The notes under the pieces were generated by a model that saw only the letters and a program-made list of their open reading frames with translations, was not told the DNA's origin and searched no databases. Positions 40,733 through 57,517 of a DNA stretch of 64,000 nt are shown in pieces. The translations under genes and the position numbers were made by a program. Position 1 is the first letter of the stretch. Each line of letters begins with the position of its first letter. The stretch is from Dehalococcoidia bacterium (GTDB lineage Bacteria; Chloroflexota; Dehalococcoidia; Lucifugimonadales; UBA3495). Location of the stretch: positions 1 through 64,000 of the forward strand of contig JAJDTP010000017.1 in the NCBI GenBank assembly GCA_022827095.1, given 5' to 3'.

Positions 40733-42325
40733 TTATGCGTTAGATGCCCCCCGAGTCTCCCCCTGGAAGTCGCGCGTCAGCTGCGCCAGCAGGAAGAAGA
40801 TGTTCTCCACGGCGTTGGTGGCTTCTACGATGATGCGCTGGCGGTCGTCGTCTTCCTCGGGGGCCATGGCCAGGTAGCGGGCGCGGACGTCCTGCATCAT
40901 GCTGCGGCGGTCTCCCATCACCTGCCCGACGAACGCCCAGGAGTCGGGGTCGTCCTCTTCCAGCGCGTCCAGGAAGATGAGCAGGGCGGCGTCGGTGCCC
41001 TCGACCACGCTGATTTGGAAGGTCTCCAGCATGTCGTCCTCGGGCAGGTCGCGCAGCAGGCCGGGCAGCGTTGAGAACTGTTCCTCCAGCCAGGTGATGA
41101 GCTTCTGGCGGCCCAGCACGGCGTTGCGTCGTTCGCTGTCCTGTCCGGGGTTGCGCTGACCCAGCTGGGCCAGGAACTCGTCGATGCGACCGTTCACCTC
41201 CAGGGTGGACTGCCGGACGGCGCCCAGGGGCAGTCCCATGCGGGCCTGCTCCAGGTACTCAGAGAAGCGGCCCAGCACCCGCTTCTGTTCCAGATGGGCC
41301 AGGTCCAGGGCCGTGGTCACGTCGTCGATGGCCTGGTCGTGGATGAACTGGGGCCGGGACCGTTCCTCCTCAGCGCTGGCCGGCCAGACGCGGGCGAACA
41401 GCCGCATGGTCCATTCCGGCGCCGACAGCACCACGATCCGCGATGGCATGCCGAAGACGATCACCGCCAGCGCCATCTGCGGGCCCAGGTCGATGTCGGG
41501 CCAGGTCACCAGCGCCTTGACCAGCGGCACCTGCGCGTACACCTCTATATATAGGAGCATCACCAGGATGATCGCCGAGAAGAAGACCTGGAACGCCCAG
41601 AACATGCCCAGTTGCCGCGCGGTGCCGCTCAGACCCGAAGACACCACAATCACGCTGATGCCCAGCCCCACGTAGGAGCCGTAGATGTACATCAGCACCT
41701 GCTCCACGCCCACCAGCTGGGCGGCAGCCAGCCCGATGCCGAAGGCCACCACCGGCACCAGCGCCTGCACGATGAAGGTCAGCAGCGCGCCGATGATGAA
41801 GGACAGCAGGATGGACCCGGCGGAAAGCTCCAGGCCGGCGCGGAACCAGGGCTGCTCCGACAAAGGCGCCGCCGACTCCTTGATCAGCACCAGCCCGAAG
41901 AGCAGCGCCGCCACTCCAAAGAGCATGGCCCCGGCCTCACGGTAGTTGCCCCGGTTCAGACGGGTGATGATGACGCCGCCGATGCCGATACCGTAGAGCG
42001 CGGCGATACGTATGTCCACCGTCACAATGAACAGGATCAGGCCCACCCCCATCTGCGCGCCCAGGGCGATGGGATAGCCCTGCTTGGCCGAGATCAGCCC
42101 CGACCGCAGCATGCTGATGGTGATGAACGTGACGGCCGGCGAGGACTGGGTGATGGCGCCGGCCAGGGTGCCCCAGCCGAAGGCGGCGAAGCGGTTGTCG
42201 GCCAGGCGGCTGGCCAGCACCCGCAAGCGCGGCCCCACCACGGTTTTGAGGTTCTCGGAGAGGAGCCACATCCCGAAGAACAGCAGCCCAACGCCGCCGA
42301 GGATGCCGCCAAGCACTGCAATCAT
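40733..42325 (-). CDS. Na/Pi-cotransporter-like protein with PhoU-like domain
   Basis: 530 aa. The membrane half has two inverted repeats with the QSSP signature in AGAITQSSPAVTFITISML and GALLTFIVQALVPVVAFG, as in NptA/YjbB-type phosphate exporters or importers. The second half (about residues 330-520) is helical with PhoU-like character (LDLAHLEQKRVLGRFSEYLEQ, TNAVENIFFLLAQL). It would move phosphate with sodium. No pst or pho genes lie nearby. Confidence 0.82.
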   Translation of the reverse strand: MIAVLGGILGGVGLLFFGMWLLSENLKTVVGPRLRVLASRLADNRFAAFGWGTLAGAITQSSPAVTFITISMLRSGLISAKQGYPIALGAQMGVGLILFIVTVDIRIAALYGIGIGGVIITRLNRGNYREAGAMLFGVAALLFGLVLIKESAAPLSEQPWFRAGLELSAGSILLSFIIGALLTFIVQALVPVVAFGIGLAAAQLVGVEQVLMYIYGSYVGLGISVIVVSSGLSGTARQLGMFWAFQVFFSAIILVMLLYIEVYAQVPLVKALVTWPDIDLGPQMALAVIVFGMPSRIVVLSAPEWTMRLFARVWPASAEEERSRPQFIHDQAIDDVTTALDLAHLEQKRVLGRFSEYLEQARMGLPLGAVRQSTLEVNGRIDEFLAQLGQRNPGQDSERRNAVLGRQKLITWLEEQFSTLPGLLRDLPEDDMLETFQISVVEGTDAALLIFLDALEEDDPDSWAFVGQVMGDRRSMMQDVRARYLAMAPEEDDDRQRIIVEATNAVENIFFLLAQLTRDFQGETRGASNA

Positions 42326-42927: not shown

Positions 42928-43872
42928 TTAGTCATCTTTCAACTGTGTCAACAGAGGCACCGCCCGCTTCGCCATGGCGTGATATTCGGTCGAAGACTCG
43001 ATACCCATGGCGCGCAGACCGGCGGCGCGGGCAGCCGCGACGGTGGAGCCCGAACCCATGAACGGGTCCAGTATGGTTCCGGTGCCCATCGGCAGCGCGG
43101 CCCTCGTCAGTTGTCGCATCAGCCGCTGCGGCTTCAGTGACGGGTGCGGAGCGATCTCCCGCTCAACCTTTCCTGCCGGGGGGCAGACGATCACGTCCCA
43201 AAACGGCTGCTCTTCCGAGATGCGCCGCAGTCCACCAACTCCCCACCTGCGCAGGTTGTCCTGAACCCGGCCCTCCACGGGTTTGCGGAACAGACCCCAC
43301 GGTTCCCAGCCCGAGCGTGGCATCACCGAGACATCGGGAAACTCCTCGTGAGCGCCCTTCGGGCGGTCTCCGCCGCGCAGGGTCTTGACGATGCGCACGA
43401 TCTCCCCGCGCTTTTCAAAACCCGACGACATCATCGGACCGTAAACGTGATGCGAAAGGAGGGGATTGGTGGCGATGAACACGTGCGCGCCCGGAACCAG
43501 CGCCTTCATCAACAGCGGCGCCAATCGAGTGAAGAACCGTTCCAGCTCCTCTTCATCGCCGGGCGTCAGCACCGTGAAGCGCGGGACTGGGCTGCGTCGT
43601 GCGCCGTCGAAACTCGGCGGGATGCGCCACACGCCGCCGTTGCCGGTTTGCCGCTTGTGCAGTTGGTCGGACCGGTACTCGACCAGTCCGTAGGGAGGGT
43701 CCGTGACGACGGCGTGGATTGATGACGGCTCGGCCATTTCCAGCCAATCGAAAGCGTCGGCCAATACCAGGTCGGTGTCGATGTCCGCTTCGGAACCAGA
43801 CAAACAATCGGTGGTCCGGTCCGTCGGCTTCAGGGTATCGGCGAAGTTATCCGGTTCCGGTTGGATGGCCAT
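42928..43872 (-). CDS. Beta-class DNA methyltransferase (N4-C or N6-A)
   Basis: 314 aa. The catalytic DPPY motif (VVTDPPYGLVEY, about residues 56-67) comes before the AdoMet-binding motif (LDPFMGSGSTVAAA, near 270), the order of beta-class amino-methyltransferases. PHPSLKPQRLMRQL precedes the latter as usual. It would modify cytosine N4 or adenine N6 in a short site. No restriction enzyme is adjacent; the neighbours are a phage portal and terminase, so it probably protects or marks packaged DNA, or is a phage-type orphan enzyme. The ATG at 43872 has GGAGGTG upstream. Confidence 0.88.
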   Translation of the reverse strand: MAIQPEPDNFADTLKPTDRTTDCLSGSEADIDTDLVLADAFDWLEMAEPSSIHAVVTDPPYGLVEYRSDQLHKRQTGNGGVWRIPPSFDGARRSPVPRFTVLTPGDEEELERFFTRLAPLLMKALVPGAHVFIATNPLLSHHVYGPMMSSGFEKRGEIVRIVKTLRGGDRPKGAHEEFPDVSVMPRSGWEPWGLFRKPVEGRVQDNLRRWGVGGLRRISEEQPFWDVIVCPPAGKVEREIAPHPSLKPQRLMRQLTRAALPMGTGTILDPFMGSGSTVAAARAAGLRAMGIESSTEYHAMAKRAVPLLTQLKDD

Positions 43873-43920
43873 GAGCACCTCCCGGCGCGCCGCTAGAATA
43901 TCCCAGGGGGTTGGGACTGT

Positions 43921-45156
43921 CTATCGCTCGGCCGGCCCGTCGCCCCACGGCACCTCCGCCAGGTTCCGCTCCCGGCGCACCTCGTTGATGGTGAGCACGC
44001 CCCGATCCAGCAGCGCCGACTCCCGCTGCACGCGGTTGTTCTCGTCCTCCTGCAGCGCCTCGATGGCCGACAGGTCGAACTCCACCGTCAGCTGCGGGTA
44101 GCCCAGCTTGGGCAGCAGCATCCGGTTCAGCTGTTCCTCCAGGAACCGCACCTCCGGCACGATGGTGTTGCGCCAGAACATGCGCTCCGACGCCTGCACG
44201 TTGGCGTAGGTGGCCCGCTCGAAGTCGCCCAGCAGCAGCTTGGGCACGCCATACGTTCGGCTGACCTCCTCCAGGCTCCAGCGCAGGCCCTGGATGAAGT
44301 CGATGTCCCGGTGGGACAGGCCCAGCGTCTTCACGTCCCGCACCGCCGACGCCACCGCCGGCCGGTTGGCGTTGGTCGAACCCTGGTGGCGCATCTCCCA
44401 CCGGGTGTAGAACTCCTCCAGCTCCGTCTCGTTCATCTCCTCGTCGGTCAGCAGCAGGAAGTCGGGCCGCGCCGAGTTGCGCAGCAGGTGCCGGTTGAAC
44501 CGCAGCCCCTCGTGCCCCATGTCCGCCGAGAGCCGCGCCGGCGCCAGCGGCGACAGGCCGGCCAGCTCCTCCAGCGGGTTGAAGTAGCGCAGCCACACGA
44601 TCTCCTCGGTCGTGTAGGCCACCGGCTCAGCGACCCCGCGGTACACGAACCCCCGCACGTAGCGCCGCCGGTCCGGGATGACGACCATCCGGTCGGGACG
44701 CAGGGGCCACAGCTCCGCCTGCCCGCCCTCGTCCCGCTCGATGGCCCAGAAGGCCGCGCCCCACAGGCACAGGTGCGTCTCCGTCGCCCGCCACAGGTCG
44801 GCCCGCGTGTGCCACGGGTTCACCCGATCCAGCAGCCGCGCCGCCGGATGCGACGCCTCCACCGCCGTCCGGCGTCCGCCCGACTCGCCGGTGCGGTACA
44901 CCCGCAGCGGCGGCCGGGTCAACGCGTCGGCCCTCAATTTGATCGCCGCGTACACCGACGGCGACGTCGCCATGTACCGTCCGTACTCCGGCCGAGCCCA
45001 GCCGCCGCCGGCGTCAGTCGCCAGGCCGGCCATCCGCTCCTCCGCCGGCAGCCGGTCCGCCCGCGCCGCCCTATTGGCCCGTTGCACTACCCTGGTATCC
45101 GTCGCCACGCGCCGGCCGACCCCAACGGAGCGCAGCATCTTGCCCAGTTTCACCAT
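43921..45156 (-). CDS. HK97-family phage portal protein
   Basis: 411 aa, full length for the family. SPSVYAAIKLRADALTRPPLRVYR, LLDRVNPWHTRADLWRATETHL, LWGAAFWAIERD, WPLRPDRMVVIPD, IVWLRYFNPLEELAGLSPL, and the C-terminal YGVPKLLLGDFERATYANV are standard HK97-type portal segments. Portals form the dodecameric DNA channel of a capsid. No frameshift is seen, so it looks functional. It follows the terminase by 60 bp; a protease and capsid gene would be expected next, but a methyltransferase is found instead. Confidence 0.9.
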   Translation of the reverse strand: MVKLGKMLRSVGVGRRVATDTRVVQRANRAARADRLPAEERMAGLATDAGGGWARPEYGRYMATSPSVYAAIKLRADALTRPPLRVYRTGESGGRRTAVEASHPAARLLDRVNPWHTRADLWRATETHLCLWGAAFWAIERDEGGQAELWPLRPDRMVVIPDRRRYVRGFVYRGVAEPVAYTTEEIVWLRYFNPLEELAGLSPLAPARLSADMGHEGLRFNRHLLRNSARPDFLLLTDEEMNETELEEFYTRWEMRHQGSTNANRPAVASAVRDVKTLGLSHRDIDFIQGLRWSLEEVSRTYGVPKLLLGDFERATYANVQASERMFWRNTIVPEVRFLEEQLNRMLLPKLGYPQLTVEFDLSAIEALQEDENNRVQRESALLDRGVLTINEVRRERNLAEVPWGDGPAER

Positions 45157-45179
45157 TTCCCTTCTTCTCCTGATAATCC

Positions 45180-45207
45180 GCTAATCCCGAAAATCCTGCT
45201 TCTGACC
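45180..45207. repeat. Short AT-containing repeat between terminase and portal
   Basis: CTAATCCCGAAAATCCTGCT followed by TCTGAC matches the repeat unit that is translated inside the terminase N-terminus (46560-46712). It lies in the 60-bp gap before the portal gene. Confidence 0.6.
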
Positions 45208-45216
45208 CACTCCTTA

Positions 45217-46755
45217 TTAAAGGAACAGGTCCCGCAGCCACCGCGGCATCTCGGCCGGCTGCTCCGTGTCCAGGAAGGCCAGCATCAGCGCGTCGGCCTT
45301 GTCCGGCGACGGCAGCCCGCGCCGCTTCATGTCCTCCTTGCTCTCCATCAGCACCTTGCCCCGGCTGTTGTACCGATACCGCAGCGACGCCAGCTCGGCG
45401 ATCAGCTCCGCGTCCCGGGGGATGCGGATGCTGTGCTCGCGGAACCGCCGCGCCAGCGTCCAGTAACCCTCCGCTCGCAGGTTCGCGCAGACCACCGCCT
45501 CCCGTATCGGCGAGTTGCTCCCGTTGATGCCCTGCACCGGCGCGCCCTCGTTCCGCAGCTTGTCCACCACGCCGGCGCCCATGCCCACTTCGTCCACGTT
45601 GACGCCCGACGCGTCCAGCGCCAGGGCGGTGTTCCGCACCCGGCCGGCCAGGTCCTCGGTGTCAATGCCGTGAAACACCCGCACGTCCACCACCACGTCC
45701 CCGCGCCGCGCCATGATCACGCTGCGGTCGACGCCGAACCGCGCCACGTCCACGCCCAGGATCACCGGCTCGTACCCGCCCGTCGCCGCCGGAACCTCTC
45801 CCAGCGGATACGTCGCGTCGTCGATGTCCGAGATGGCGATCAGGTTGTCCTCGCCCCGGTCCGGGAACTCCCCCATCACCCGCGCCTTGAACATCTCGCT
45901 GTTCTCGCCCCACATCGCCCGCCGCTCTTCCACCCACGCCGGCGTGGTCAGGCCGGGGATGACGATATCGCCCGCCGCCACGTTGGGCGACTCCAGCGCC
46001 GACATCGTGATCGTCTCGTAGATGCCCCGCTCCCGGTGAAAGGCCCGGTGGAACCCGCCCGACGTGGTCGTCGGGTTCCCGATCAGCAGCAGCGTCGGAC
46101 GCGCCGACGTCATCACCGCCTCCACCGCCTCGTAGATCGGCTCGGCGACCCCCTCCGCCTCGTCCACCACCACCAGCATGTTCTCGCAGTGGAACCCCTG
46201 GAACTGGTCCGCCTCGCTGGCCGACAGTCCCATGGCGTAGCGGTCCTCCGCCACCTCCCACCGCGTGTCCAGCATCGTGCCGCCCAGCGTGTCCGACGCG
46301 TTACGGTACAGCCGGTGGATCTGCCGCCACAGCACGTGGCGCACCTGCCGGAACGTCGGCGCCGTGCTCAGCGCGATGGCCGGATCATGAGCGTGCACGT
46401 ACCAGAGCACGGCCACGGCGGCGGTGAAGTCCTTGCCCAGCCCGTTGCCCGATTTCACCGCCACCCGACGCTCCCGCTCCACCGCCCGCAGCACCTCCTC
46501 CTGCTTGCTCCAAAGCCTCACGCCCAATGTGTCCGACGCGAACCGCACCGGACCATTGTCTGAAGCAGGATTTTCAGGATTATAGGATTTACCGGATGAG
46601 CGAAAATCCCGAAAATCCTCAAATCCGGCAAATCCTGCTTCAGACTGACCGGATTCACCGGATGAGCGGAAATCCCGAAAATCCCCAAATCCGGCAAATC
46701 CTGCATCAGACGATTTCGAGACGGCTACAACAACGTCCGTCCCATACCGCCCCAC
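45217..46755 (-). CDS. Phage terminase large subunit with repeat-derived N-terminus
   Basis: 512 aa. ATPase: VAVKSGNGLGKDF is a Walker A-like loop and MLVVVDEAEG the Walker B, followed by LLIGNPTTTSGGFH (motif III). The nuclease domain starts at ILGVDVARFGVDRS and includes DEVGMGAGVVD and DKADALMLAFL. It would drive packaging and cut DNA. The first 67 residues contain two copies of a GFAGF-DFRDFRSSG unit encoded by intergenic-type repeat DNA. Translation from GTG at 46755, adjacent to the preceding stop (TAAGTG), reads through them; a later start near codon 69 is possible. Confidence 0.9.
   Translation of the reverse strand: MGRYGTDVVVAVSKSSDAGFAGFGDFRDFRSSGESGQSEAGFAGFEDFRDFRSSGKSYNPENPASDNGPVRFASDTLGVRLWSKQEEVLRAVERERRVAVKSGNGLGKDFTAAVAVLWYVHAHDPAIALSTAPTFRQVRHVLWRQIHRLYRNASDTLGGTMLDTRWEVAEDRYAMGLSASEADQFQGFHCENMLVVVDEAEGVAEPIYEAVEAVMTSARPTLLLIGNPTTTSGGFHRAFHRERGIYETITMSALESPNVAAGDIVIPGLTTPAWVEERRAMWGENSEMFKARVMGEFPDRGEDNLIAISDIDDATYPLGEVPAATGGYEPVILGVDVARFGVDRSVIMARRGDVVVDVRVFHGIDTEDLAGRVRNTALALDASGVNVDEVGMGAGVVDKLRNEGAPVQGINGSNSPIREAVVCANLRAEGYWTLARRFREHSIRIPRDAELIAELASLRYRYNSRGKVLMESKEDMKRRGLPSPDKADALMLAFLDTEQPAEMPRWLRDLFL
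46560..46712. repeat. Tandem/dispersed repeat inside the terminase 5' end
   Basis: Two nearly identical units containing CGAAAATCC(T/C)CAAATCCGG and CAAATCCTGC(T/A)TCAGAC, plus a third degenerate unit at the left. The same unit occurs between terminase and portal. It is in frame with the terminase gene and adds a Gly/Phe/Arg-rich peptide. Confidence 0.75.
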
Positions 46756-47007
46756 TTACCGCGCCGCACCCGTGCCGGAGCCGGACCCCGGCCGCCGGCG
46801 CACCGCGGCCACCGACGCCAGCCGGCGCCTCGCCTCCTCGGAGTTGATCGGCGCCGCCGCCGGCTGCACGTTCGTCCCTCCCGCCAAACCCGCAGGCGGG
46901 CTGAACAGGAAGCCGCAGTCCAGGCAGCGGTACACCGTGTGGTCTTCCCCGTCCAGTCGGGCCAGTTCCAGCAGTCGGTCGGAATTGCAACGACGACAGA
47001 TCAACAC
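46756..47007 (-). CDS. Zinc-ribbon protein at head of the packaging module
   Basis: 83 aa from GTG 47007, with GAGGTGA upstream. Cys4 and Cys7 (CRRC) and a second pair about 24 residues later (CLDC) form a zinc ribbon; the C-terminal half is basic and Gly/Arg-rich. It could bind DNA or act with the terminase in recognition, the role of a small terminase subunit. That role is inferred from gene order. It is the first gene after a near-consensus promoter. Confidence 0.65.
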   Translation of the reverse strand: MLICRRCNSDRLLELARLDGEDHTVYRCLDCGFLFSPPAGLAGGTNVQPAAAPINSEEARRRLASVAAVRRRPGSGSGTGAAR

Positions 47008-47063
47008 TATTCACCTCTTTCCTGTGGCCGGAAATTGCGGATTGGCAGGCCACACCAGACCAC

Positions 47064-47091
47064 TCTATAGAACTAACGTTCCATATGTCAA
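47064..47091 (-). promoter_or_regulatory. Near-consensus promoter of the packaging module
   Basis: On the minus strand TTGACA (47086-47091), 16-bp spacer, TATAGA (47064-47069). Transcription would start about 50 nt before the zinc-ribbon GTG. It lies just beyond a terminator, so the zinc-ribbon, terminase, portal and methyltransferase genes form a separate transcript. Confidence 0.75.
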
Positions 47092-47106: not shown

Positions 47107-47138
47107 AAATAAAAAACCCCGCCGGGAAGCCGGCGGGG
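47107..47138 (-). terminator. Strong rho-independent terminator
   Basis: On the minus strand CCCCGCCGG, loop CTTC, CCGGCGGGG, then TTTTTTATTT. It ends the transcript of the small genes upstream (47166-48460). Confidence 0.92.
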
Positions 47139-47165
47139 CGTCTCTGCGGCGGCGGCGGAACCGGA

Positions 47166-47360
47166 CTAGCCCGGATTGTGCCGCTCGACGAACTCCACGA
47201 TGCGCGCGTCCAGCGATCCCTTCTGGTCGTCCAGCGTGCCGGCGTCGGCGAACGCCACCGCCAGGTGCGCGTCCCGTTGGATGTCTTCCCAGTCGGTCTC
47301 CAGCTCGAACTCGTCCCGCAGTTCTTCAAAAAGCTGGTCCAGCGAAGCCTTGTCGAACAT
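47166..47360 (-). CDS. 64-residue acidic helical protein
   Basis: The start at 47360 has GGAGG about ten bases upstream. The product (MFDKASLDQLFEELRDEFELE, then DLDARIVEFVERHN-like helices) is strongly acidic and helical, with no membrane segment. It lies between a family A repeat and the terminator, as last gene of the small-gene unit. No family recognised; acidic DNA mimic or scaffold-like roles are conceivable but not shown. Confidence 0.6.
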   Translation of the reverse strand: MFDKASLDQLFEELRDEFELETDWEDIQRDAHLAVAFADAGTLDDQKGSLDARIVEFVERHNPG

Positions 47361-47530
47361 ATCGGTTTTGTTACCTCCTCCGGTTGGTCGGCGACCCTGC
47401 GGTTGAGCCGCCCCGTGCCACTCCGCCGCACAGGTCTCCCCGTGCTGACCCAACCCGATCTCCGGCGCGCGTGGCAGCAGACGGTATATTACTCCCATTC
47501 ATCGCCGGGGGCAAGCGGCCCCCATCGCCG

Positions 47531-47667: not shown

Positions 47668-48033
47668 CTAGTCCGCCGCCGGGTCGGGTACCGGTTCGGT
47701 AGGCGTCAGGATGACGCCGCCCGTCTGTCCGTCGTGGCGGTGACGCATCACCAGGTCCACCCGCTCGTGCAGCGCCCGCAGCGAACCGCGGATTTCACCC
47801 ACCTGCTCCCGCAGACCGGCGATTTGCGTTCGCAGGTCGATTACCTGTTCCTCCAGACGCTCCACGCGGACGGTAAGGGCGGCAATCGCTTCGCGCAGGC
47901 CGTTGATGTCGCCCTGAATCCGGCCCACCAGGAACATCAGCCGCAGCACCGCGCCCAGCAGCGCCAGCAGCAGCAGACTCTGAAAGGCCATGAAGGCGTA
48001 CAGAATATAGGCGTTCGCGGTAACCTCGCTCAT
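47668..48033 (-). CDS. Membrane-anchored coiled-coil protein
   Basis: 121 aa. One N-terminal helix (about residues 8-34), then a heptad-rich coiled coil (REAIAALTVRVERLEEQVIDL, GLREQVGEIRGSLRALHERV) and a Pro-rich end. The layout is like small membrane-tethered spacers in phage lysis or membrane scaffolds. GGGAGATAAG precedes the ATG. It is third in the small-gene unit; function unknown. Confidence 0.65.
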   Translation of the reverse strand: MSEVTANAYILYAFMAFQSLLLLALLGAVLRLMFLVGRIQGDINGLREAIAALTVRVERLEEQVIDLRTQIAGLREQVGEIRGSLRALHERVDLVMRHRHDGQTGGVILTPTEPVPDPAAD

Positions 48034-48080: not shown

Positions 48081-48311
48081 TCACCCCAATCCTCGCCCGT
48101 TCCGCCGCGCCAGCCCAATCCCACCGGCAAACCCCAGCAGCGCCCCCACCGCCCCTTTCACCATCCAATCCGCCAGCGCGATGAGCTGCTTCTGCGCCGG
48201 CGTCAACTCCGGCCCGGACACCCAGGCCTGCCACGCCATGCCGACGCTGCCCAGCAGCACCAAGCCTACCATCGTAACCAATATCGCGAGAGGCAGCGCG
48301 TTGCCGCTCAT
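48081..48311 (-). CDS. 76-residue two-helix membrane protein (holin-like)
   Basis: Two membrane helices (about residues 7-30 and 50-68) are joined by a short loop (VSGPELTPAQKQLIALAD), with a basic C-terminus (ARRNGRG). Size and topology resemble class II holins, but this is only a topological similarity. The start ATG overlaps the stop of the 50-residue gene upstream (ATGA). Confidence 0.6.
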   Translation of the reverse strand: MSGNALPLAILVTMVGLVLLGSVGMAWQAWVSGPELTPAQKQLIALADWMVKGAVGALLGFAGGIGLARRNGRGLG

Positions 48312-48460
48312 TGCCGGCTTCCTTCCGACTCGCCGGGAGTGGCCGCGCTCTTCTTGCCCTGCTGCCAAAGGATGTACACCACGCCGCCGAAACCGCCCAG
48401 CAGCATCAGCAGTCCGATCACCGCCACCACCAGCAGGATTACTCCGATTGCCGTATCCAC
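48308..48460 (-). CDS. 50-residue single-helix membrane protein, GTG start
   Basis: GTG 48460 to TGA 48308, with GAGGTGA upstream. A strongly hydrophobic helix (IGVILLVVAVIGLLMLLGGF, about residues 5-24, continuing GVVYILW) is followed by a short charged tail (QQGKKSAATPGESEG). The four-base overlap with the next start indicates translational coupling. It is the first gene of the small-gene unit. Function unknown. Confidence 0.6.
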   Translation of the reverse strand: MDTAIGVILLVVAVIGLLMLLGGFGGVVYILWQQGKKSAATPGESEGSRQ

Positions 48461-48631: not shown

Positions 48632-48889
48632 CCTAAAAAATCGCCCAAATTGCCATCCTTTTGTAATACTCCCGTAATGTTGACGCCGCTAAAATGGCAA
48701 GCCAAGTCTGGAAATCTACCCAGCCGTCGCCCACGGCCGGCCAATGCCCGCCCCGCCGACGGCCTCACCACAAGGAGGTGTGAGCCCAAATACCTGCCAA
48801 AAGCCGCCCCACGCCCGCCCGCGGGCAATACCTACGAGCCCGCGCCACGCTGGGCCGAGGGCGCAACCAACAACTCAAAGTACCCAGAG

Positions 48890-48938
48890 GACAATCTCGA
48901 AAGGGAGATTTTGTCAAATGAGTAGAAAAACGAGAAAG
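48890..48938 (+). repeat. Conserved leader/signal-start block, copy 1
   Basis: GACAATCTCGAAAGGGAGAT leads into the ATG and the first codons MSRKTRK. An almost identical block lies at 54885-54931, and a weaker one before 52148. It contains the ribosome-binding site. Confidence 0.6.
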
Positions 48939-51900
48939 CTGATATGGTCAGCGCCCCTGGTGGCGGTGTTAGCCGTCGCCGCCGCGCTGGCTATCTTTGC
49001 AGCCCATCCGCCGGGCGAGGCCCAGGCGGACCACGTGGACATCCCCGGCGCGCCGACCAATCTGGTAGCCAAGCCGGCCGACGGCAACGAGGGGCGAACC
49101 GCCGTGGTTCTCACCTGGCTCGCGCCGGAAAAAGGCCCGGTGACCGGCTACCGCATCGACTATTCGATGAATGGCTCCGTGTGGATGCAGCTGAAGGATA
49201 ACACCGGCGACACCGAGTTGACGTACAAGCACGAGGGCCTAAAACCCGGCCTGACGTACATCTACCGGGTCTTCGCCATCAACTCCGCCGGCACCGGTCT
49301 GGTCTCCGAGACCTACTCCACTATGACCACCGGAGCAGCGGGACAGCCCGACAGGGTCATGAACGTGCGGGCCACCGTGCCCACCACCATACCCGAAAAG
49401 TGGCACCAGATTGACCTGACCTGGGACGCGCCCTACGGCGGCGGAAAGAAAATCACCAACTACTGCATCGAGATGTCTGATGAAGCCACCCCGTTCCAGG
49501 CTGATGATGCTGGGTGCCGGGTGACAACCGGGGCCACTCGCGCGACCGCTGCCGACTTTGCCACTGGCTCCACCGCGGGCCTCATCCTCACGGACAATGC
49601 GATGACCAAACACTCGGTCAAGGAACTGCCCGCGGCAGAAAGGCGGTTCTTCAAGGTCTATGCCATTACCGGCGCGGGCACGACTGCCGATCCTTACGGC
49701 GTATCCGAGATGCCCTCTGACGCGGTGAACGCCATGACGGAGGCGGCGGTGAATCCAAGCCCGCCAAGAAACCTGCGCCTGGCAGTAGAAGGAACCGCCG
49801 TTAACCTCTACTGGCACTGGCCTACCAGCGACGGCGGCGTGCCCATCGATAACTTCCGCATTGAAGTGACCTCCGACCGCAACAAGTGGCCACTGGCGAG
49901 CCATGAAAACGCCGATAATGGGTGGGATGGCTCCACTGTCACCGCTACCGGCAATGATGAAGCCGTGTTGACGGATGTTACGGCGGCGGGCGCTCAATCC
50001 TCGACGGCGGCGGAGCAAACGACCCATACTCATAGTGTCCCCGTAAACGTAAAGAGGACGCTGTACTATCGCGTCTTCACCAAGAGCGGTACGAAGAAGA
50101 GCGTCGCGAGCAATATCGCCTCCATTGTCGTGAACAGCGGCACGATCTCGCCGACGACGCCGACGTTTGCGGCCATGGGCGCGGTTCCGGCCGACGAAGA
50201 CGCCGGCAGAACCAAGATCAATCTGGAGTGGGCAGCCGGGACTTACGACGATCCCAATGATGATCCCGATGCGGGCGCTACTGTTCCCTATCCCGCGTCT
50301 GGTTATCGGATTGACTACGCCATGGGCGCAGCGACCGGAACTGATCTGCTGAAATGGATGCCGCTGTGGGGACACACTGGTTTCACCGACACCAAGTTCA
50401 ACCACGAAGGGATCAAGCCCAGCACGGAAATCTATTACCGCATCTTCACCATCGGCGCGAACCAGGTCATCAGCGCCGCGAGTGACCTGCAAAGCACCAC
50501 CACCAAGGCGCCCGGCGCCTTAGCCAAGGCACGGAACGTGAATGCGCGGGCCGTCGACTCCACCAAGATCTCTGTCACCTGGGACCATCCCATGGGCCTC
50601 GGCGACAGCGACATCGACCACTACTCAGTCCAGATGGCCCAGCAGGGCGCTATCCCTGCTACCTTTGCTGATATTGTCACCGATCAGACGGATGGGCCGG
50701 CCTTGATGTACGAGCACACCGACCTGAGCCAGAATCAGGTTTGGCTCTATCGCGTCGCGGCCGTGGCTCCCAATCGTACCGGCGCCCTCGAGGAGAGCGA
50801 ATACACCGGGTGGGAGACGGCGACTACTCCCGCGGCGGGCAAACCCGAAATGCCCATCGGCCTGGTGGCCGAAAACGCCCGGGACTCCAACCTGACCGGC
50901 CCGGGACAGCGGGGCGTCCTGCTCATCTGGGACAAGCCTAAGGGCCCTCCTGGCTCCACGGTCGTAAACTACAAGGTTGAGCGGTTGGTCGTGGGAGAGG
51001 ACAGCACCTATAAGGCCCTTGGCACCACTACCAATATGCGTACCACCCTGACCGACTTCGACGAGCCGGCTGCCAACGAGGTGCGTATGTACCGCGTCGC
51101 CGCCATCGACGACGGTGACGTAACCGGCGAGTGGGCCGAAGTACGCTTCCCCGTGGACACTATGGTGGTCCCCAGCAAGCCCACCGTCATGGCCACGGTG
51201 TCCGCCGATATGCCTGGCTCCGAGATTAAGGTGTCCTGGACCGCGCCGGACATGAACGCCGACGACGTTACCGGATACATCATCGAGCGCAAGTACGCGG
51301 GCGACATGGTGGGTGCCATTCCGTCCGACGGCTACAACGACGACGCCATGGGGCGGATGCACGCCTTCATGGACTACAAGGAATGGTGGGAAACGCTGAA
51401 CTGTAAGGGAATGCTGGCCGTCGCCATGGCGGAGGACACCACCGCCAACCGCGACATGTACTGCAAGCACTTCGCCAACACCGCGCCCACCAACATGGCC
51501 TTCGAGGGCAGTACGGTTTCCGACGAAACTGCCATGAAGATCAAAGAGCTCTTCATGAAGCGCTACGTCTCCGATGACATGGGCAAGACCATGACCACGT
51601 TCACGGGCATGATGTTCACCGACATGAACCTCATGGAGAACACGGAGTACACCTACCGCGTCCGCGCCATCCATGGCATGAAGGCCGGTATGTGGTCTGC
51701 AGAGGCCACGGCCGCGACGATGGCGGTGACGCCTTTGACCGCGCCGGACCTGACCGCGACTAAGGGCACCGGCTCGGTGACGCTGACGTGGGACGAGCAG
51801 GCCGCCGCGGTTAAATACACCGTCTGGGGCGTCCGTTCGGACGGCTCACCCGCGAGGGAGGGCAGTGCGGATATCATCTTGCGGATTGATGACATCACCG

Positions 51901-52046
51901 CCACTACCTACGAAGTGACGGGCCTGACAAGTGGGCAGGAGTACTGGTTTGTCGTTACCGCCTGCGCGGTGGCGGACTGTAATCCTGGCCGTGAGGTTCA
52001 GGGCAGTTCCATCTTCTCCAACCTCGTCATCGCGGTGCCCGACTAA
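48918..52046 (+). CDS. Large secreted FnIII-repeat protein
   Basis: 1042 aa from the ATG at 48918, set by AGGGAG and the conserved MSRKTRK signal start; an upstream ATG would add 58 unrelated residues. After a signal peptide (cut near AEAQADH-like position 37) about eight fibronectin type III domains follow, each with a W-x-APE/DAP and Y-x-YRV pattern, for example GPVTGYRIDYS and TYIYRVFAINSAG. The seventh domain carries an inserted helical segment with two Cys (YKEWWETLNCKGMLAV). It is probably a surface or matrix adhesin. No sortase or S-layer anchor is seen. Confidence 0.82.
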   Translation: MSRKTRKLIWSAPLVAVLAVAAALAIFAAHPPGEAQADHVDIPGAPTNLVAKPADGNEGRTAVVLTWLAPEKGPVTGYRIDYSMNGSVWMQLKDNTGDTELTYKHEGLKPGLTYIYRVFAINSAGTGLVSETYSTMTTGAAGQPDRVMNVRATVPTTIPEKWHQIDLTWDAPYGGGKKITNYCIEMSDEATPFQADDAGCRVTTGATRATAADFATGSTAGLILTDNAMTKHSVKELPAAERRFFKVYAITGAGTTADPYGVSEMPSDAVNAMTEAAVNPSPPRNLRLAVEGTAVNLYWHWPTSDGGVPIDNFRIEVTSDRNKWPLASHENADNGWDGSTVTATGNDEAVLTDVTAAGAQSSTAAEQTTHTHSVPVNVKRTLYYRVFTKSGTKKSVASNIASIVVNSGTISPTTPTFAAMGAVPADEDAGRTKINLEWAAGTYDDPNDDPDAGATVPYPASGYRIDYAMGAATGTDLLKWMPLWGHTGFTDTKFNHEGIKPSTEIYYRIFTIGANQVISAASDLQSTTTKAPGALAKARNVNARAVDSTKISVTWDHPMGLGDSDIDHYSVQMAQQGAIPATFADIVTDQTDGPALMYEHTDLSQNQVWLYRVAAVAPNRTGALEESEYTGWETATTPAAGKPEMPIGLVAENARDSNLTGPGQRGVLLIWDKPKGPPGSTVVNYKVERLVVGEDSTYKALGTTTNMRTTLTDFDEPAANEVRMYRVAAIDDGDVTGEWAEVRFPVDTMVVPSKPTVMATVSADMPGSEIKVSWTAPDMNADDVTGYIIERKYAGDMVGAIPSDGYNDDAMGRMHAFMDYKEWWETLNCKGMLAVAMAEDTTANRDMYCKHFANTAPTNMAFEGSTVSDETAMKIKELFMKRYVSDDMGKTMTTFTGMMFTDMNLMENTEYTYRVRAIHGMKAGMWSAEATAATMAVTPLTAPDLTATKGTGSVTLTWDEQAAAVKYTVWGVRSDGSPAREGSADIILRIDDITATTYEVTGLTSGQEYWFVVTACAVADCNPGREVQGSSIFSNLVIAVPD

Positions 52047-52147
52047 CCTCAGCGGAGCGAATCAACAAGAAGCTGCCGGGCGCCCGCCAGGCGCGGGTGT
52101 CCGGTGGCACGGAATAGCAGTCTCAAGTCAAAGAGGAGACTCAACAC

Positions 52148-54790
52148 ATGAGTAACAAAACCAGAAAAGGCGTTCGGCCAGCAATGCTGGCTGCGGCGCT
52201 GGGCGTGGTCGCTATGTTGGCCGTATTGGCGGCGCTGGCGCTGCCGTACGGACCGGCCTACGCGCAAACCCCCTTCGATCCGCCGGCGCCTACAGGCGTG
52301 AATGCCGCTGCGAACAGTGACGGCACCCAGGTCATGGTGACCTGGACGGCCGGCACCGGAGGCGCTCCGGCCACAGGTTACGAGGTCGAGCGCAAAGTGG
52401 GTACCGGTAACTACGAGAGTGCCGACCCGGCCCACTCCGGCACGACGCCCAGTTACACCGACCACAACGTGTCGGCCGGCATGACTTACACCTACCGGGT
52501 GCGAGCCACCAACAGCATAAGCGTGAGCGCTTGGGTCGCGTCAAATGAAGTGGCGGTGACCGCCCCAGCCAACAACCCCCCGGTGGCCCAAGACCCCCCT
52601 GAATTGGACCCCATCGTGGGTCTCATGATAACGGACGCCGATGGCAATTCCGTAAGCAACACCGAAGTTGTGGAGGATATTGCTCAGTACTTCAGCGATT
52701 CCGACGGTGACACGCTGACGCTCACCCCGGGTTCCTCGGATACTTCGACGGCCACGGCCGAGATCAATGCGGAAGGGGACCTGGTTATTACCGCAGTTGG
52801 CGCCGGGGATGCTGACATCACAGTTACCGCGGACGACGGCAACGGTGGCACTGTCAGGCTGATCATCCCGGTGACGGTGCAGCTGTCGGCGGCGGAGCGG
52901 TACCACCTGTGGCACACCGATGATGACGACATGCGCATCAACTCCGTCGTACTCGACGCGCCGGCCACGCAGGAGATCACCTTCACGGTATCCGCCGTGG
53001 ACGCTGACGGCTCTAAACTGGACGAAGATGCCACGGTCAACTTTGTGATGCAGCAATTCCCTGAATCTGCGGCCAATTCGCCGCTGGTGACCCGCGTGAT
53101 CGGCTGGGACTCCAGTACCGACAGCAACATCGAGGATGACGACATCATCCAGGGTCTGCTGACGGTTCGCGCCGTCGACCCGGACGGGGAGCGGGGCTTC
53201 ACAGTCCATTTCCGGTGCGTGGAACCCGGCGACCGTGTTGAAATCGATATGCTGGACGAGGTGCCGGAACTGGTCGCCGAAGCTACCATCAGCTGCGGAG
53301 AACCGGAGCCCGATGTCACGCCCGGACCCGACGACACTACCTCCGACCATTTCACCGTAGCCAGCTACGGCGACTGGGAATACCATGACGTTACCGACGG
53401 CTTCATTCTCGATGTCGGCAATGGCAACCTTCACATGATCAACGATCACCCAATCGAAAAAAGGGGCTTGCTCCGCCGTGACGAGCCAGTGATCCACGCC
53501 GATTACACCCTGGGTGTGAGCAACATAGAGACGCTGGAGGACATGGACGACGGGTCGCCGCGCCGCGTCAAGACGGATGCCGATCTGACCCGTCAGGAAA
53601 AGAACGCCTACGTGGAAGAGGGACAGCGCACCATCGAGGTGCTGGCGGACCAGCCCAACGTGCAGTTGACCGTCACTTCCATGGAGCCAAGCCCGGCCTA
53701 CATCCGGTTCCTGGACAAGTACATGCGACCCTTCGGCACCGACGTGGACGAAGAGCCCATGTGGCGGGGCGCCGACGTGGTGGGCCTGGACAGCCAGGGC
53801 CGCCTGGAGCTGAACAACCAGGTGACGCTGTCCGCGGCGAAAGCCCTGGCCTATGACCAGTACTCCATCAAGACTCCCGACATCACTGAGGGCCAGCCGG
53901 TCGGCAATTCGTACCTGGTCGGCGCGGCCGGCGACTACAATCAGGGCGCTTTCCGGTTCATGAACCCCTGCCCCGAGGTGGGACACCACTTCTACGTGCA
54001 GGTGTACGAATCCACCGGGAAGTACCTGGAGACCACGGAAAAGATCGTCTGCGTGCCGTCGCCGCGGCCCGGTCCCACCGGACTGGAGTTCACGGTCGAT
54101 AGCCAGGAAGCCGGTAAAGGCGAGCTGACCTATCGGCACGCCCTGAACGCCGATGAGCACACCGTGTTGTTGGTCGACGCTCACAGCCGCACCATCGTGA
54201 CCGGTGGTGAGATCACCGACGCGCCGGAGATGGTGGAGTTCGGCCCCAACGGTGTCGGACCCACGCTCAACGACGGCTGGCGCTACCACTTCATCGTGGT
54301 CGCCCACGGCGTGAATGACCAGTACACCGCTGACGCGATAACCGTCACGACGGAATGGATCGACCACGCCGACGCCGCGGACAGCACCCTGACCGCTGGC
54401 GCCCCGACACGCACCCACATCGTGTGTCAGACCGGCAATGCCGAAGTGATGGCGTTGCTGGCCGACTGCGACGAGGAGCCCGTGATACCGCCAATGCTGG
54501 GCAAACCCACCAATGTGATGGCGAGGATTGACGACAGCGACCCCGGTCTCGACGACATCGTGGTTACCTGGATGGATGGAGCCAACGCGGACGTTCACCA
54601 CGTCTACCTGGTGCCCACCGACTTCAACTTCGCGAACATCCGCAACGAGCGGATCACGTCCGGAGGGACGCACACGTTCATGGACGTGGCGCCGGATACG
54701 TACATCGTCGCCGTGCAGTCCACGTCGCCGACGACAGAAGGCTACGAGTACGCCATCGCCCCCGCCCTCATCACGGTCGGAGGCCAGTAA
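52148..54790 (+). CDS. Large secreted FnIII/Ig-like protein
   Basis: 880 aa with the MSNKTRK signal peptide start and AGGAG before it. One FnIII domain (PPAPTGVNAAANSDGTQVMV, about residues 43-140) is followed by a cadherin/Ig-like domain rich in Asp (FSDSDGDTLTLTPG, ITVTADDGNGG) that probably binds calcium, then beta-rich segments of unknown type with several Cys pairs, and a last FnIII-like domain (PTNVMARIDDSDPGLDDIVVTW). It would be exported and act with its two neighbours. No anchor seen. Confidence 0.8.
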   Translation: MSNKTRKGVRPAMLAAALGVVAMLAVLAALALPYGPAYAQTPFDPPAPTGVNAAANSDGTQVMVTWTAGTGGAPATGYEVERKVGTGNYESADPAHSGTTPSYTDHNVSAGMTYTYRVRATNSISVSAWVASNEVAVTAPANNPPVAQDPPELDPIVGLMITDADGNSVSNTEVVEDIAQYFSDSDGDTLTLTPGSSDTSTATAEINAEGDLVITAVGAGDADITVTADDGNGGTVRLIIPVTVQLSAAERYHLWHTDDDDMRINSVVLDAPATQEITFTVSAVDADGSKLDEDATVNFVMQQFPESAANSPLVTRVIGWDSSTDSNIEDDDIIQGLLTVRAVDPDGERGFTVHFRCVEPGDRVEIDMLDEVPELVAEATISCGEPEPDVTPGPDDTTSDHFTVASYGDWEYHDVTDGFILDVGNGNLHMINDHPIEKRGLLRRDEPVIHADYTLGVSNIETLEDMDDGSPRRVKTDADLTRQEKNAYVEEGQRTIEVLADQPNVQLTVTSMEPSPAYIRFLDKYMRPFGTDVDEEPMWRGADVVGLDSQGRLELNNQVTLSAAKALAYDQYSIKTPDITEGQPVGNSYLVGAAGDYNQGAFRFMNPCPEVGHHFYVQVYESTGKYLETTEKIVCVPSPRPGPTGLEFTVDSQEAGKGELTYRHALNADEHTVLLVDAHSRTIVTGGEITDAPEMVEFGPNGVGPTLNDGWRYHFIVVAHGVNDQYTADAITVTTEWIDHADAADSTLTAGAPTRTHIVCQTGNAEVMALLADCDEEPVIPPMLGKPTNVMARIDDSDPGLDDIVVTWMDGANADVHHVYLVPTDFNFANIRNERITSGGTHTFMDVAPDTYIVAVQSTSPTTEGYEYAIAPALITVGGQ

Positions 54791-54884
54791 GGCAGCGCAA
54801 GAAGGCTCTGAGCGTTCTCAAGGAACGGTCAAACCCTCCGGCGGAAAGCTCGGAGCCCTCCCCTGCATTACGGCAATCATGAAA

Positions 54885-54931
54885 GACAATCTCAAAGGAG
54901 ATTTAGTCAAATGAGCAACAAAACGAGAAAG
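54885..54931 (+). repeat. Conserved leader/signal-start block, copy 2
   Basis: GACAATCTCAAAGGAGATTT, then GTCAAATGAGCAACAAAACG, nearly matches the block at 48890-48938. The three surface genes therefore share a translation-initiation cassette, which suggests duplication of the 5' ends or common control. Confidence 0.65.
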
Positions 54932-57517
54932 CGCCTCTGGCCGGCGTCGCTGGTGATGGCGGTTGCTATCATTGGCGTGGTGGCCGCATTCCTGATGGTG
55001 GCGTCTTCCCCGACCAACACGCAGGCGCACGACGGCGAGACCGGCGCGGCGCACTGCGAAGGATTAAACGAATTCCTCCAGGATCTCCATGACGCCTCCG
55101 CGGGCGATCACACCTGCGACAACCCGCCGCAGGCAACCATGGAGCCGACCGCGACGCGGGATCCGAGCGCCATGGACATGATCGACAACAGCAGCACCTC
55201 GGCCAGCGCCGGCGTGAAGCTCGTGTTGACCATTGGCAGCTTCCCCATGGACGCCAAGGCTGGCAGTTCCGTGGAGCTGTACCTGGAGGACGACTTCCAG
55301 GTCCCCGACTCCATCGACCGGGACACCGTGTACTTCACGGTCGATTCCAACGATCCCGACCAGAACAGCGGCGGTCGCGTGTATGCCACCGACCCCATCG
55401 AGATCGACGACGATGACCACTATGGCGGCGATGACGACTGGGCCATCCAGGTCTTCATTCCCGACATGAACGACGCCGAAGATAGCGGTTACGACGGGCC
55501 GTTGAAGAACCAGACTGTGACCCTGGTCTTCACCAAGGCCGCCGGCATCAAGAACCCCAGCGAAGAGGGCAGCCACAGCATCGACTACGTGGTGCTGGAC
55601 ACCAACGACGATCCCAACGACGGTCCTCCGGACCACGATCCCGACAAGCCCGGCAACCAGCCGCGCTGGGAAGTGCGGGTCGAGTCGAAGATCTCGCTGT
55701 CCGACGAGGATAACGATCGCGGCTACGAGCTGACCGTTACTGGTTCCGGATTCAACAACGGCACTTCCGCCGCCGTCCACGTCCTGAATGACGCCAGCGC
55801 CACCCCTAGCGACAAGACCACCTGGCCTTCGTGCGCCAAGGTCATCACCCAGGGCGCCCGCGCCGGCATCGCTACCGTGGGCAGCGACGACAAGGTGGCC
55901 GTAACCTTCGAGGTTACCGTGCCCACCTTCAAGGCCGGCAAGAACAACTACATCTGCATGGTGGACGGTGAAGGCCGCTCCTCCAGCACCGATGTGGAGC
56001 AGTTCGAGCTGCAAGACTCCCTGCGGGTGGTGCCTGCCACGGCCAACGCCGGCGACACCGTCAACGTGTTCGCCCAGGATTTCCCGCAACAGGGAAACAA
56101 CAGCCTGACCTCGCTGAAGATAGCGGGTCAGGAAGTGTTTGACCGCACTATCGACGCCGACACCGGTCTGGCTAAGTGCGCTCCGAATTGTATGTCCGTC
56201 AACCACGACTCCATCGGCGCCGACGGTTCGGCGACAGTGTCCTTCGAGCTGCCGGGCAGCATATCCGGCAGCGCCCTGGAAGGCACGGTGCGGATCGACG
56301 CCAAGTGGGGGAGCGTGAGCGAAGACGCCAAGATCACCATCACCGGTTCCCAGCTGACTCTGAGCAAGAGCGAAGTGTCGGCCAACGAGAGCGTCACCAT
56401 CCGGGGCAGTGGCTTCGGCGACGGCTCCGGCTGCCTGGTGTCCGCCACCCTCAGCGGTGCCAACCTGATGCTGGTCAGCGATGACGACCCCACCAAACCC
56501 AATACGCTGGGTGCCGACGAGAGTTGCATCGACGTTGAGGTTTCCTCGGCCGGTCAGTTCGCCGCCACCGTGGCCATCTGGGTCGACGACGACAACGCAA
56601 CCAACCCGGCGCTGACCCCCGGCACACACACCATCGAGGTGGTGGACGACGAGGGTTTCACGGGCAACGCCACCATCATCATCAAGGAACCCACGCTGAC
56701 GGTCACCCCCGACGTGGCCGGCCCCCGGGACTACGTCACCATCTCCGGTGAGAACTGGCCCGTGGAGAACGAAGACGGCGGGGACATCGACGAGGTGAAG
56801 ATCGTCATCGACGAAAGCGGTGTGGACGACGACGAGGACGCCGACCCGGACGCCAGCGGGCGTTGGTCCGTGACCTACCGGGTGGACGGCGGGGTCACCA
56901 TCCCCTCCACCGTCCCGGTCAAGGCTTCCTATGGCTCGGGCAGTGAAATCGTTCGCGTCGGCTCCTTCAGCGTGCCGGCCGCCAACCTGACGGTTGAGCC
57001 CATGAGCGCCGTCCCCGGCGACACGATCACGCTGTCCGCCACCGGCTTCTCCCTGTTTGAGTCGGACATCGAGGTCAAGATCGGCAGCCTGACGGTCAAC
57101 GTGCCCGCCAGCGCCCACACCGACGGCGACGGCGCCATCGACGGACTGGAAGTTCTGGTCCCGTCCCTGGACCCGGCCCTGTACACCGTGCAGATGAATG
57201 TCGGTGATACGGTCACCATCGGCGAGCTGACGGTGATGGACGACGTGGCCGTGGGCGTCCCGCAGTCGCTGCCCGACGCGGTATCTGCGGTGGGCGACAA
57301 CTTGGTTGCCGTCTTCTACTTCGACGACGTGGCCAAGGCCTGGTCCTTCTACGACCCGCGCCCCGAGTTCGCCGACCTCAACACCCTGTCCGAAATGGTC
57401 AGCGGCCAGGCCTACTGGATCCTGGTCAGTGAGACTGTGGAAGACGTGGTCCTGAACGGCCGGCTCCGCAGTCTCACCTGCCGCGGCGACGACTGCTGGA
57501 ACCTGGAGGTCTGGTAG
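54911..57517 (+). CDS. Large acidic secreted IPT/TIG-like repeat protein
   Basis: 868 aa. The MSNKTRK signal peptide is followed by a very acidic region (IEIDDDDHYGGDDDW) and then repeated Ig-like/TIG domains, each opening with patterns such as LTLSKSEVSANESVTIRGSG, LTVTPDVAGPRDYVTISGEN and LTVEPMSAVPGDTITLSATG. The C-terminus is a distinct 80-residue domain (VGDNLVAVFYFDDVAKAWSF, then DLNTLSEMVSGQAYWILVSE) found at the end of many Chloroflexota surface proteins as I recall, possibly for attachment. Probably calcium-binding and exported. Confidence 0.8.
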   Translation: MSNKTRKRLWPASLVMAVAIIGVVAAFLMVASSPTNTQAHDGETGAAHCEGLNEFLQDLHDASAGDHTCDNPPQATMEPTATRDPSAMDMIDNSSTSASAGVKLVLTIGSFPMDAKAGSSVELYLEDDFQVPDSIDRDTVYFTVDSNDPDQNSGGRVYATDPIEIDDDDHYGGDDDWAIQVFIPDMNDAEDSGYDGPLKNQTVTLVFTKAAGIKNPSEEGSHSIDYVVLDTNDDPNDGPPDHDPDKPGNQPRWEVRVESKISLSDEDNDRGYELTVTGSGFNNGTSAAVHVLNDASATPSDKTTWPSCAKVITQGARAGIATVGSDDKVAVTFEVTVPTFKAGKNNYICMVDGEGRSSSTDVEQFELQDSLRVVPATANAGDTVNVFAQDFPQQGNNSLTSLKIAGQEVFDRTIDADTGLAKCAPNCMSVNHDSIGADGSATVSFELPGSISGSALEGTVRIDAKWGSVSEDAKITITGSQLTLSKSEVSANESVTIRGSGFGDGSGCLVSATLSGANLMLVSDDDPTKPNTLGADESCIDVEVSSAGQFAATVAIWVDDDNATNPALTPGTHTIEVVDDEGFTGNATIIIKEPTLTVTPDVAGPRDYVTISGENWPVENEDGGDIDEVKIVIDESGVDDDEDADPDASGRWSVTYRVDGGVTIPSTVPVKASYGSGSEIVRVGSFSVPAANLTVEPMSAVPGDTITLSATGFSLFESDIEVKIGSLTVNVPASAHTDGDGAIDGLEVLVPSLDPALYTVQMNVGDTVTIGELTVMDDVAVGVPQSLPDAVSAVGDNLVAVFYFDDVAKAWSFYDPRPEFADLNTLSEMVSGQAYWILVSETVEDVVLNGRLRSLTCRGDDCWNLEVW

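Follow-up and report, generated by a model that had tools for sequence, protein, structure and literature searches.

A packaging operon and an unlinked capsid operon in SAR202 genomes, likely the two halves of a domesticated phage head system

Encapsulins are host-owned HK97-fold shells (nanocompartments), and to our knowledge encapsulin systems lack terminase, portal, S78 protease and connector. Published gene transfer agents (GTAs) are multi-locus systems that have co-evolved with their hosts and have been reduced to packaging and structural genes (PMC11841831), and LexA has been linked to GTA control in the RcGTA group (PMC6473078). None of the ICTV-listed GTA families has a Chloroflexota host (PMC9953437), and no GTA or equivalent in SAR202 or Chloroflexota was found in the literature searched, the coverage of which was incomplete. 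SAR202 bacteria abound in sponges and the deep ocean and have hardly any cultured members.

The window analysed here, a 64,000-nt stretch of contig C21 from genome G000 (the window's own genome), carries a compact minus-strand operon that we read, with a probability of about 0.58, as one half, the packaging one, of a phage head system that SAR202 has domesticated and passes on vertically, most likely a GTA-like one. If this reading is true, bacteria across the order would own and inherit a DNA-packaging particle with which to exchange genes or repair DNA, and a phage would have been domesticated independently, outside the ICTV-listed GTA families. Comparisons were made within a genus sample of 14 genomes and an order sample of 250 genomes (SAR202, Dehalococcoidia, Chloroflexota).

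The packaging operon and its control region

The operon and its flanks comprise the following features.

40733-42325: Na/Pi cotransporter, the next gene on the methyltransferase side of the operon
42928..43878, minus strand: MTase, beta-class N6/N4 DNA methyltransferase (PF01555, 9e-16)
43921..45156, minus strand: PORTAL, HK97-family portal protein (PF04860, 4e-71)
45217..46755, minus strand: TERL, large terminase (phrog_2, 1e-37)
46756..47007, minus strand: ZNR, 83-aa zinc-ribbon protein in the slot usual for the terminase small subunit
47064..47091, minus strand: operon promoter, with -35 TTGACA at 47086-47091, a 16-bp spacer and -10 TATAGA at 47064-47069
47070..47081, no strand assigned: LexA-type box GAACTAACGTTC between -35 and -10
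~47109..47140, minus strand: intrinsic terminator (hairpin and T run) between the upstream orf (47166-47498) and the operon
47166..47498, minus strand: orf64, small acidic protein with a conserved 64-aa core at 47166-47360
47668..48033, minus strand: coil121, a protein with one membrane segment and a coiled coil
48081..48368, minus strand: small membrane protein of about 76-95 aa

The four genes follow one another as zinc ribbon, terminase, portal and methyltransferase, all intact and with intergenic gaps of 0, 60 and 42 bp, in agreement with the tight minus-strand module described in the first-pass annotation of this DNA. The TTGACA-N16-TATAGA promoter that it proposed was recovered exactly (47064-47091), a terminator separates the operon from upstream genes (hairpin and T run at ~47109-47140), and its beta-class assignment of the methyltransferase is upheld by the motif order, in which DPPY precedes FxGxG. 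The zinc ribbon of ZNR is sub-threshold in Pfam, with a CxxC..CxxC pattern present, and the gene is kept alongside TERL in families f1, f17, f24 and f27. For the portal of the window, the nearest solved structure is the RcGTA portal (6tba), and the best phage match is the portal of Geobacillus phage GBK2, at 29.6% identity. Neither a capsid nor a protease gene is present in the operon neighbourhood in the window, and large FN3-type proteins lie on the other flank from 48960 on. A row of very large secreted proteins of the fibronectin type III kind (48744-57517) is divergent from the packaging operon, and similar genes occupy the same place in several members of the genus.

The genes around this core differ in how firmly they belong to it. 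Of the 14 genus genomes, only 5 have the methyltransferase behind the portal, and when the window is compared with G009 the dS of this gene reaches 1.06, whereas that of the portal is 0.26; on these two grounds it is a passenger outside the conserved set, exchanged on its own. The small acidic protein orf64, found beside the packaging module in 8 of the 14 genomes of the genus and, in G223, beside the capsid module, is a probable accessory. Relatives of coil121 lie inside the capsid cluster at a second locus, and this protein is possibly a membrane or lysis accessory, while the small membrane protein at 48081..48368 could conceivably be a holin-like accessory.

The LexA-type box of the window is a perfect GAACN4GTTC palindrome that fills most of the promoter spacer, and a box with a different four-base core stands at the same position in G001, G009 and G011. 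GAACN4GTTC matches the LexA box of Gram-positive bacteria. It occurs within 700 bp upstream of TERL at 14 of ~36 loci, against an expectation of ~0.01-0.02 per locus, the loci being related and hence not independent, and in 8 of 13 f27 genomes it also precedes the protease, at a distance of 50-200 bp. No exact GAACN4GTTC box was found at the capsid operon of the window genus. In the genus, lexA promoters contain a close variant of the box, GAACATTAGTTT. Searched over 260 bp, the recA promoters of the genus gave no LexA-type box, and SOS control of the operons is accordingly no more than probable.

Interspersed-repeat DNA, in copies of a 66-bp repeat, is translated within the first ~65 residues of the TERL ORF, and the conserved part of the protein starts near 46560; the true start is therefore uncertain. 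The interspersed repeat, 39-66 bp long and of the GGATTTTCGGGATTT type, is found in and around the terminase at 45168-45206 and 46558-46711, and also on many other contigs of the genome. The P-loop of TERL reads GLGKD in the window lineage instead of GxGK(S/T), with the nuclease motifs intact. It is GLGKG or GSGKD in most other SAR202 families, GSGKT in f27 and GVGKS in phage relatives. Most SAR202 families, including that of the window (GLGKD/GLGKG) but not f27, have Asp or Gly where the Ser/Thr would be, although TERL is under purifying selection. TERL has an internal stop in G002 and is split in several MAGs, and the portal is broken in G004; judging by these broken copies, some lineages may be losing the system. 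An alternative scenario is that a GTA-like system functions in relatives such as f27 and no longer packages DNA in the window lineage, a view with which the contrast between GLGKD in the window genus and GSGKT in f27, the relaxed dN/dS of TERL and protease (about 0.33-0.37) and the box-free capsid operon of the window genus are all consistent. However, TERL there is intact and conserved in its nuclease motifs, the portal and capsid of that genus are also under strong constraint, and we consider such a loss of packaging very improbable.

Terminase is multi-copy and dispersed in G019, G031 (L308-L319), G060 (L320-L322) and G016 (L323-L325), with up to six copies per genome, while portal and capsid stay single. 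Within G019 and G031, most of the copies are 88-96% alike and have ~0.3-0.8 kb of upstream DNA in common, and the homology stops shortly past the stop codon, a pattern that would fit terminase having spread by itself. One of the six copies in G019 is immediately preceded by genes for a decoration-like protein and the head-tail connector (L309:3163-7378), so that in this lineage the capsid cluster is split a third way.

Capsid genes at a second locus

A PF05065 search of the genus gave one weak but above-threshold capsid match in most genomes (13/14), at a locus different from that of the packaging operon. In the window's own genome it lies on contig C14 at ~324.9-333.0 kb (loci L054, L055). 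Genes there were called by codon usage and conservation, since longest-ORF calls are misleading in this high-GC DNA, and follow in this order.

C14, first: prohead protease, S78-type (PF04586, 7e-9)
C14, second: major capsid protein, HK97-type, with an N-terminal coiled-coil delta-like region (PF05065, 1e-8; PHROG major head)
C14, third: head-tail adaptor, or connector (phrog_442)
C14, fourth: major-tail-protein homologue, 141 aa, tail-tube-like (phrog_10528, 9e-13)
C14, fifth: 675-aa protein with a lectin or CBM66-like middle domain in the model

The HK97 fold of the capsid rests on Pfam, PHROG and PDB sequence profiles, the AlphaFold capsid model having a pLDDT of 42, and the lectin/CBM66-like domain of the 675-aa protein comes from an AlphaFold model of a close relative that is partly reliable (pLDDT 60.6) and of which the middle domain alone was used. 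The capsid lies 17-356 kb from the packaging operon in closed genomes of the genus, and the presence of closed SAR202/Dehalococcoidia chromosomes among the genomes with the system rules out binning contamination as an explanation. The observation of the first-pass annotation that no capsid accompanies the module therefore holds for the locus and fails for the genome, in which an HK97-type capsid is encoded elsewhere. With it falls the proposal of a satellite that borrows capsids, as this genome has an HK97-type capsid, a protease and a connector of its own, encoded at a second locus that is inherited together with the first, and the packaging module occupies a fixed site. An encapsulin was likewise rejected, given that the capsid co-occurs with terminase and portal and that its relatives in the PDB are phage major capsid proteins.

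Terminase, portal, protease and capsid lie in canonical order within a few kb in G088, G025, G037 and G152, which represent several families other than that of the window, and also in G335, which belongs to another taxonomic order. In G088, a host transporter gene already stands between portal and protease, and in other lineages the portal-capsid distance ranges from 10 kb to 1.6 Mb, often with the genes on opposite strands. The contiguous order in distant relatives indicates that the arrangement in the window is a secondary split or relocation, and the capsid that seemed to be missing is, on this comparison, evidently the relocated half of an ancestral cluster of which both halves were kept. 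The first-pass annotation had held that capsid and protease genes beside the set in homologous loci would mark an ordinary decaying prophage. Such neighbours do exist in the relatives just named, but decay does not follow from them; they show instead that the window genus split an ancestral cluster and kept both halves under selection.

Across 61 capsid loci mapped by conservation, protease, capsid, small decoration-like proteins and connector are succeeded by ordinary host genes. Some of the loci add a tail-terminator-like protein (phrog_17840) or a fibre (phrog_18345), and part of family f1 encodes tail-tube-like and lectin-domain proteins. A tape-measure gene was seen in none of the capsid clusters, and in most lineages these clusters contain no tail gene at all. 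In the genus, PF10145 (tape measure) gave nothing above the cut-off, the best sub-threshold match being on contig C64 of G003, with one weak match in G006. Contig C64 (L025, L027, L196) carries a better capsid match (3e-20) together with portal and tape-measure-like matches, and is probably an ordinary prophage, in contrast to the conserved system.

The missing tape measure, and the lack of tail genes from the capsid clusters of most lineages, also suit a domesticated head system with a role other than transfer, in which DNA-filled or empty shells, possibly tailless, would serve storage, protection, decoy or lysis. The retention of decoration-like and fibre proteins would fit such shells, and the unusual P-loop of most families may mean an altered motor activity. 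However, terminase, portal and connector are kept with the capsid, whereas an empty shell needs neither a portal nor a terminase nuclease, and the window genus retains a major-tail-protein homologue and a lectin-domain protein. We regard a non-transfer role as unlikely, although it carries appreciable weight.

Inheritance, selection and distribution

Pairwise distances among the system proteins track those of RecA (Mantel r 0.91 for portal, 0.85 for capsid and 0.75 for terminase; each p=0.0005). In quick maximum-likelihood trees, all testable families (5/5) and genera (12/12) were monophyletic for the portal, as were 13 of 14 groups for the capsid and all groups for RecA. Within the genus, dN/dS was 0.11 for capsid, 0.18 for portal, 0.22 for the tail tube, 0.28 for the 675-aa protein, 0.30 for the connector, 0.33 for terminase and 0.37 for protease; all system genes are under purifying selection, and their dS is comparable to that of neighbouring host genes. 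The syntenic site is fixed, with the Na/Pi transporter coming after the packaging module in 12 of the 14 genomes of the genus. The system has evidently been inherited vertically with its host over long times.

The portal is present as a single copy in all 14 genus genomes (in two pieces in two of them), at about 80-93% identity that declines with kinship; G003 has in addition a distant second portal, from a probable prophage. Among the 250 order genomes, TERL was found in 89, PORTAL in 88 and the major capsid protein in 78, with all three in 67; portal and capsid occur together in 70 genomes (Fisher p=1.8e-35) and terminase and portal in 80 (p=4e-45). More than one copy of portal or capsid is rare, and both unlinked halves are retained across tens of genera. 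The system is missing from 148 of the 250, a set that includes many small genomes. A class sample of 393 genomes contained a capsid outside the order in two, namely G335, where the cluster is complete and contiguous, and G552. The latter, from another order of the class, has a lone capsid relative near a tyrosine recombinase, with no terminase or portal (L330:15344-18061). A search of 84,980 species returned 54 capsid relatives, all 54 labelled as the SAR202/Dehalococcoidia group or Chloroflexi/Chloroflexota. Collectively, these genome comparisons show the packaging and capsid operons to be co-inherited, selected for and, as read from gene order, derived from one contiguous ancestral cluster.

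An ordinary decaying prophage, split by rearrangement, would account for the local absence of protease, capsid and tail genes, for the broken genes in some relatives and for the repeats in and around the module. Nevertheless, a dN/dS near 1, which the first-pass annotation had named as the mark of decay, is not seen despite occasional broken copies, the values of 0.11-0.37 standing with the preservation of both unlinked halves across tens of genera, the co-occurrence of portal and capsid, the host-like trees, monophyletic by family and genus, and a LexA-type box fixed in position while its core drifts. Decay was rejected as improbable on this evidence, and neither locus has the setting of a prophage, since both lie amid host genes with no integrase beside either. 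The alternative that the annotation had offered, a domesticated element, is borne out by dN/dS far below 1 and by the recurrence of the set, free of an adjacent capsid, beside the Na/Pi transporter at the syntenic locus (12/14).

A currently mobile temperate phage or a PICI-like satellite that uses the packaging set is a further scenario, to which one might be led by the occurrence of terminase-portal-methyltransferase sets in phages, by the multiple dispersed TERL copies of some lineages and by related capsid contigs in IMG/VR. Yet there is no integrase or replication gene beside the module, the syntenic site is fixed, the trees follow the hosts, and portal and capsid are at most about 30% identical to those of known phages. 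The seven close capsid contigs in IMG/VR (L133-L139; 65-72%) are short, measuring 5-16 kb, and in at least one of them a host-type gene adjoins the protease; they are probably fragments of SAR202 chromosomes. A mobile element of this kind is very unlikely.

Predicted mode of action and known systems

In the GTA-like reading that we prefer, DNA damage or stress would lift LexA repression from one or both operons, a prohead of the HK97 type would mature around the portal through the action of the S78 protease, and the terminase would thread in host chromosomal DNA with no preference for its own genes, because two unlinked loci cannot both fit one small head. The connector would close the filled head, and the lectin-domain tail protein could let the particle adsorb to polysaccharide. 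A few cells would lyse and release particles, and neighbouring cells would recombine the delivered DNA. With the halves up to 1.6 Mb apart, self-transfer of the system is unlikely.

The system is built from phage packaging and head genes (TERL, PORTAL, S78 protease, HK97 capsid and head-tail adaptor), and as far as sequence can tell it shares the published GTA traits of several loci, co-evolution with the host and a content of packaging and structural genes only. It would work like a GTA and is a candidate member of that class. More tentatively, SAR202 may possess an independently evolved GTA class whose structural genes lie at scattered loci and whose particle, lacking a tape measure, consists of a head with little or no tail; both operons would be under SOS-type control, a zinc ribbon would stand in for the terminase small subunit, and in some lineages terminase would have multiplied on its own, apart from portal and capsid. 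Genome scans for complete clusters miss such systems, as each half alone resembles prophage debris and the two lie tens of kb to 1.6 Mb apart. The sequence families make the system testable in existing sponge and deep-sea viromes and metatranscriptomes.

Among described systems, RcGTA and its relatives (Rhodogtaviriformidae, Alphaproteobacteria) likewise have a host-inherited HK97-type portal, protease and capsid, several loci and no integrase in the set. In RcGTA, head and tail genes, including those for the tape measure and the tail tip, still form one contiguous cluster, whereas the SAR202 system, whose hosts are Chloroflexota, has its head genes divided between loci and a minimal tail set or none. 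VSH-1/BhGTA of Brachyspira (Brachygtaviriformidae) has its GTA genes divided between chromosomal regions, as cited in PMC11841831; the likeness lies in locus layout, and the host phylum is unrelated. Phage GBK2 and other HK97-type siphophages share the terminase-portal-prohead-capsid-adaptor order seen in G088 and G335, but the terminase small subunit, tail genes and tape measure present in GBK2 have no counterpart in the SAR202 clusters. Unlike encapsulins, the SAR202 system co-retains terminase, portal, S78 protease and connector with its capsid.
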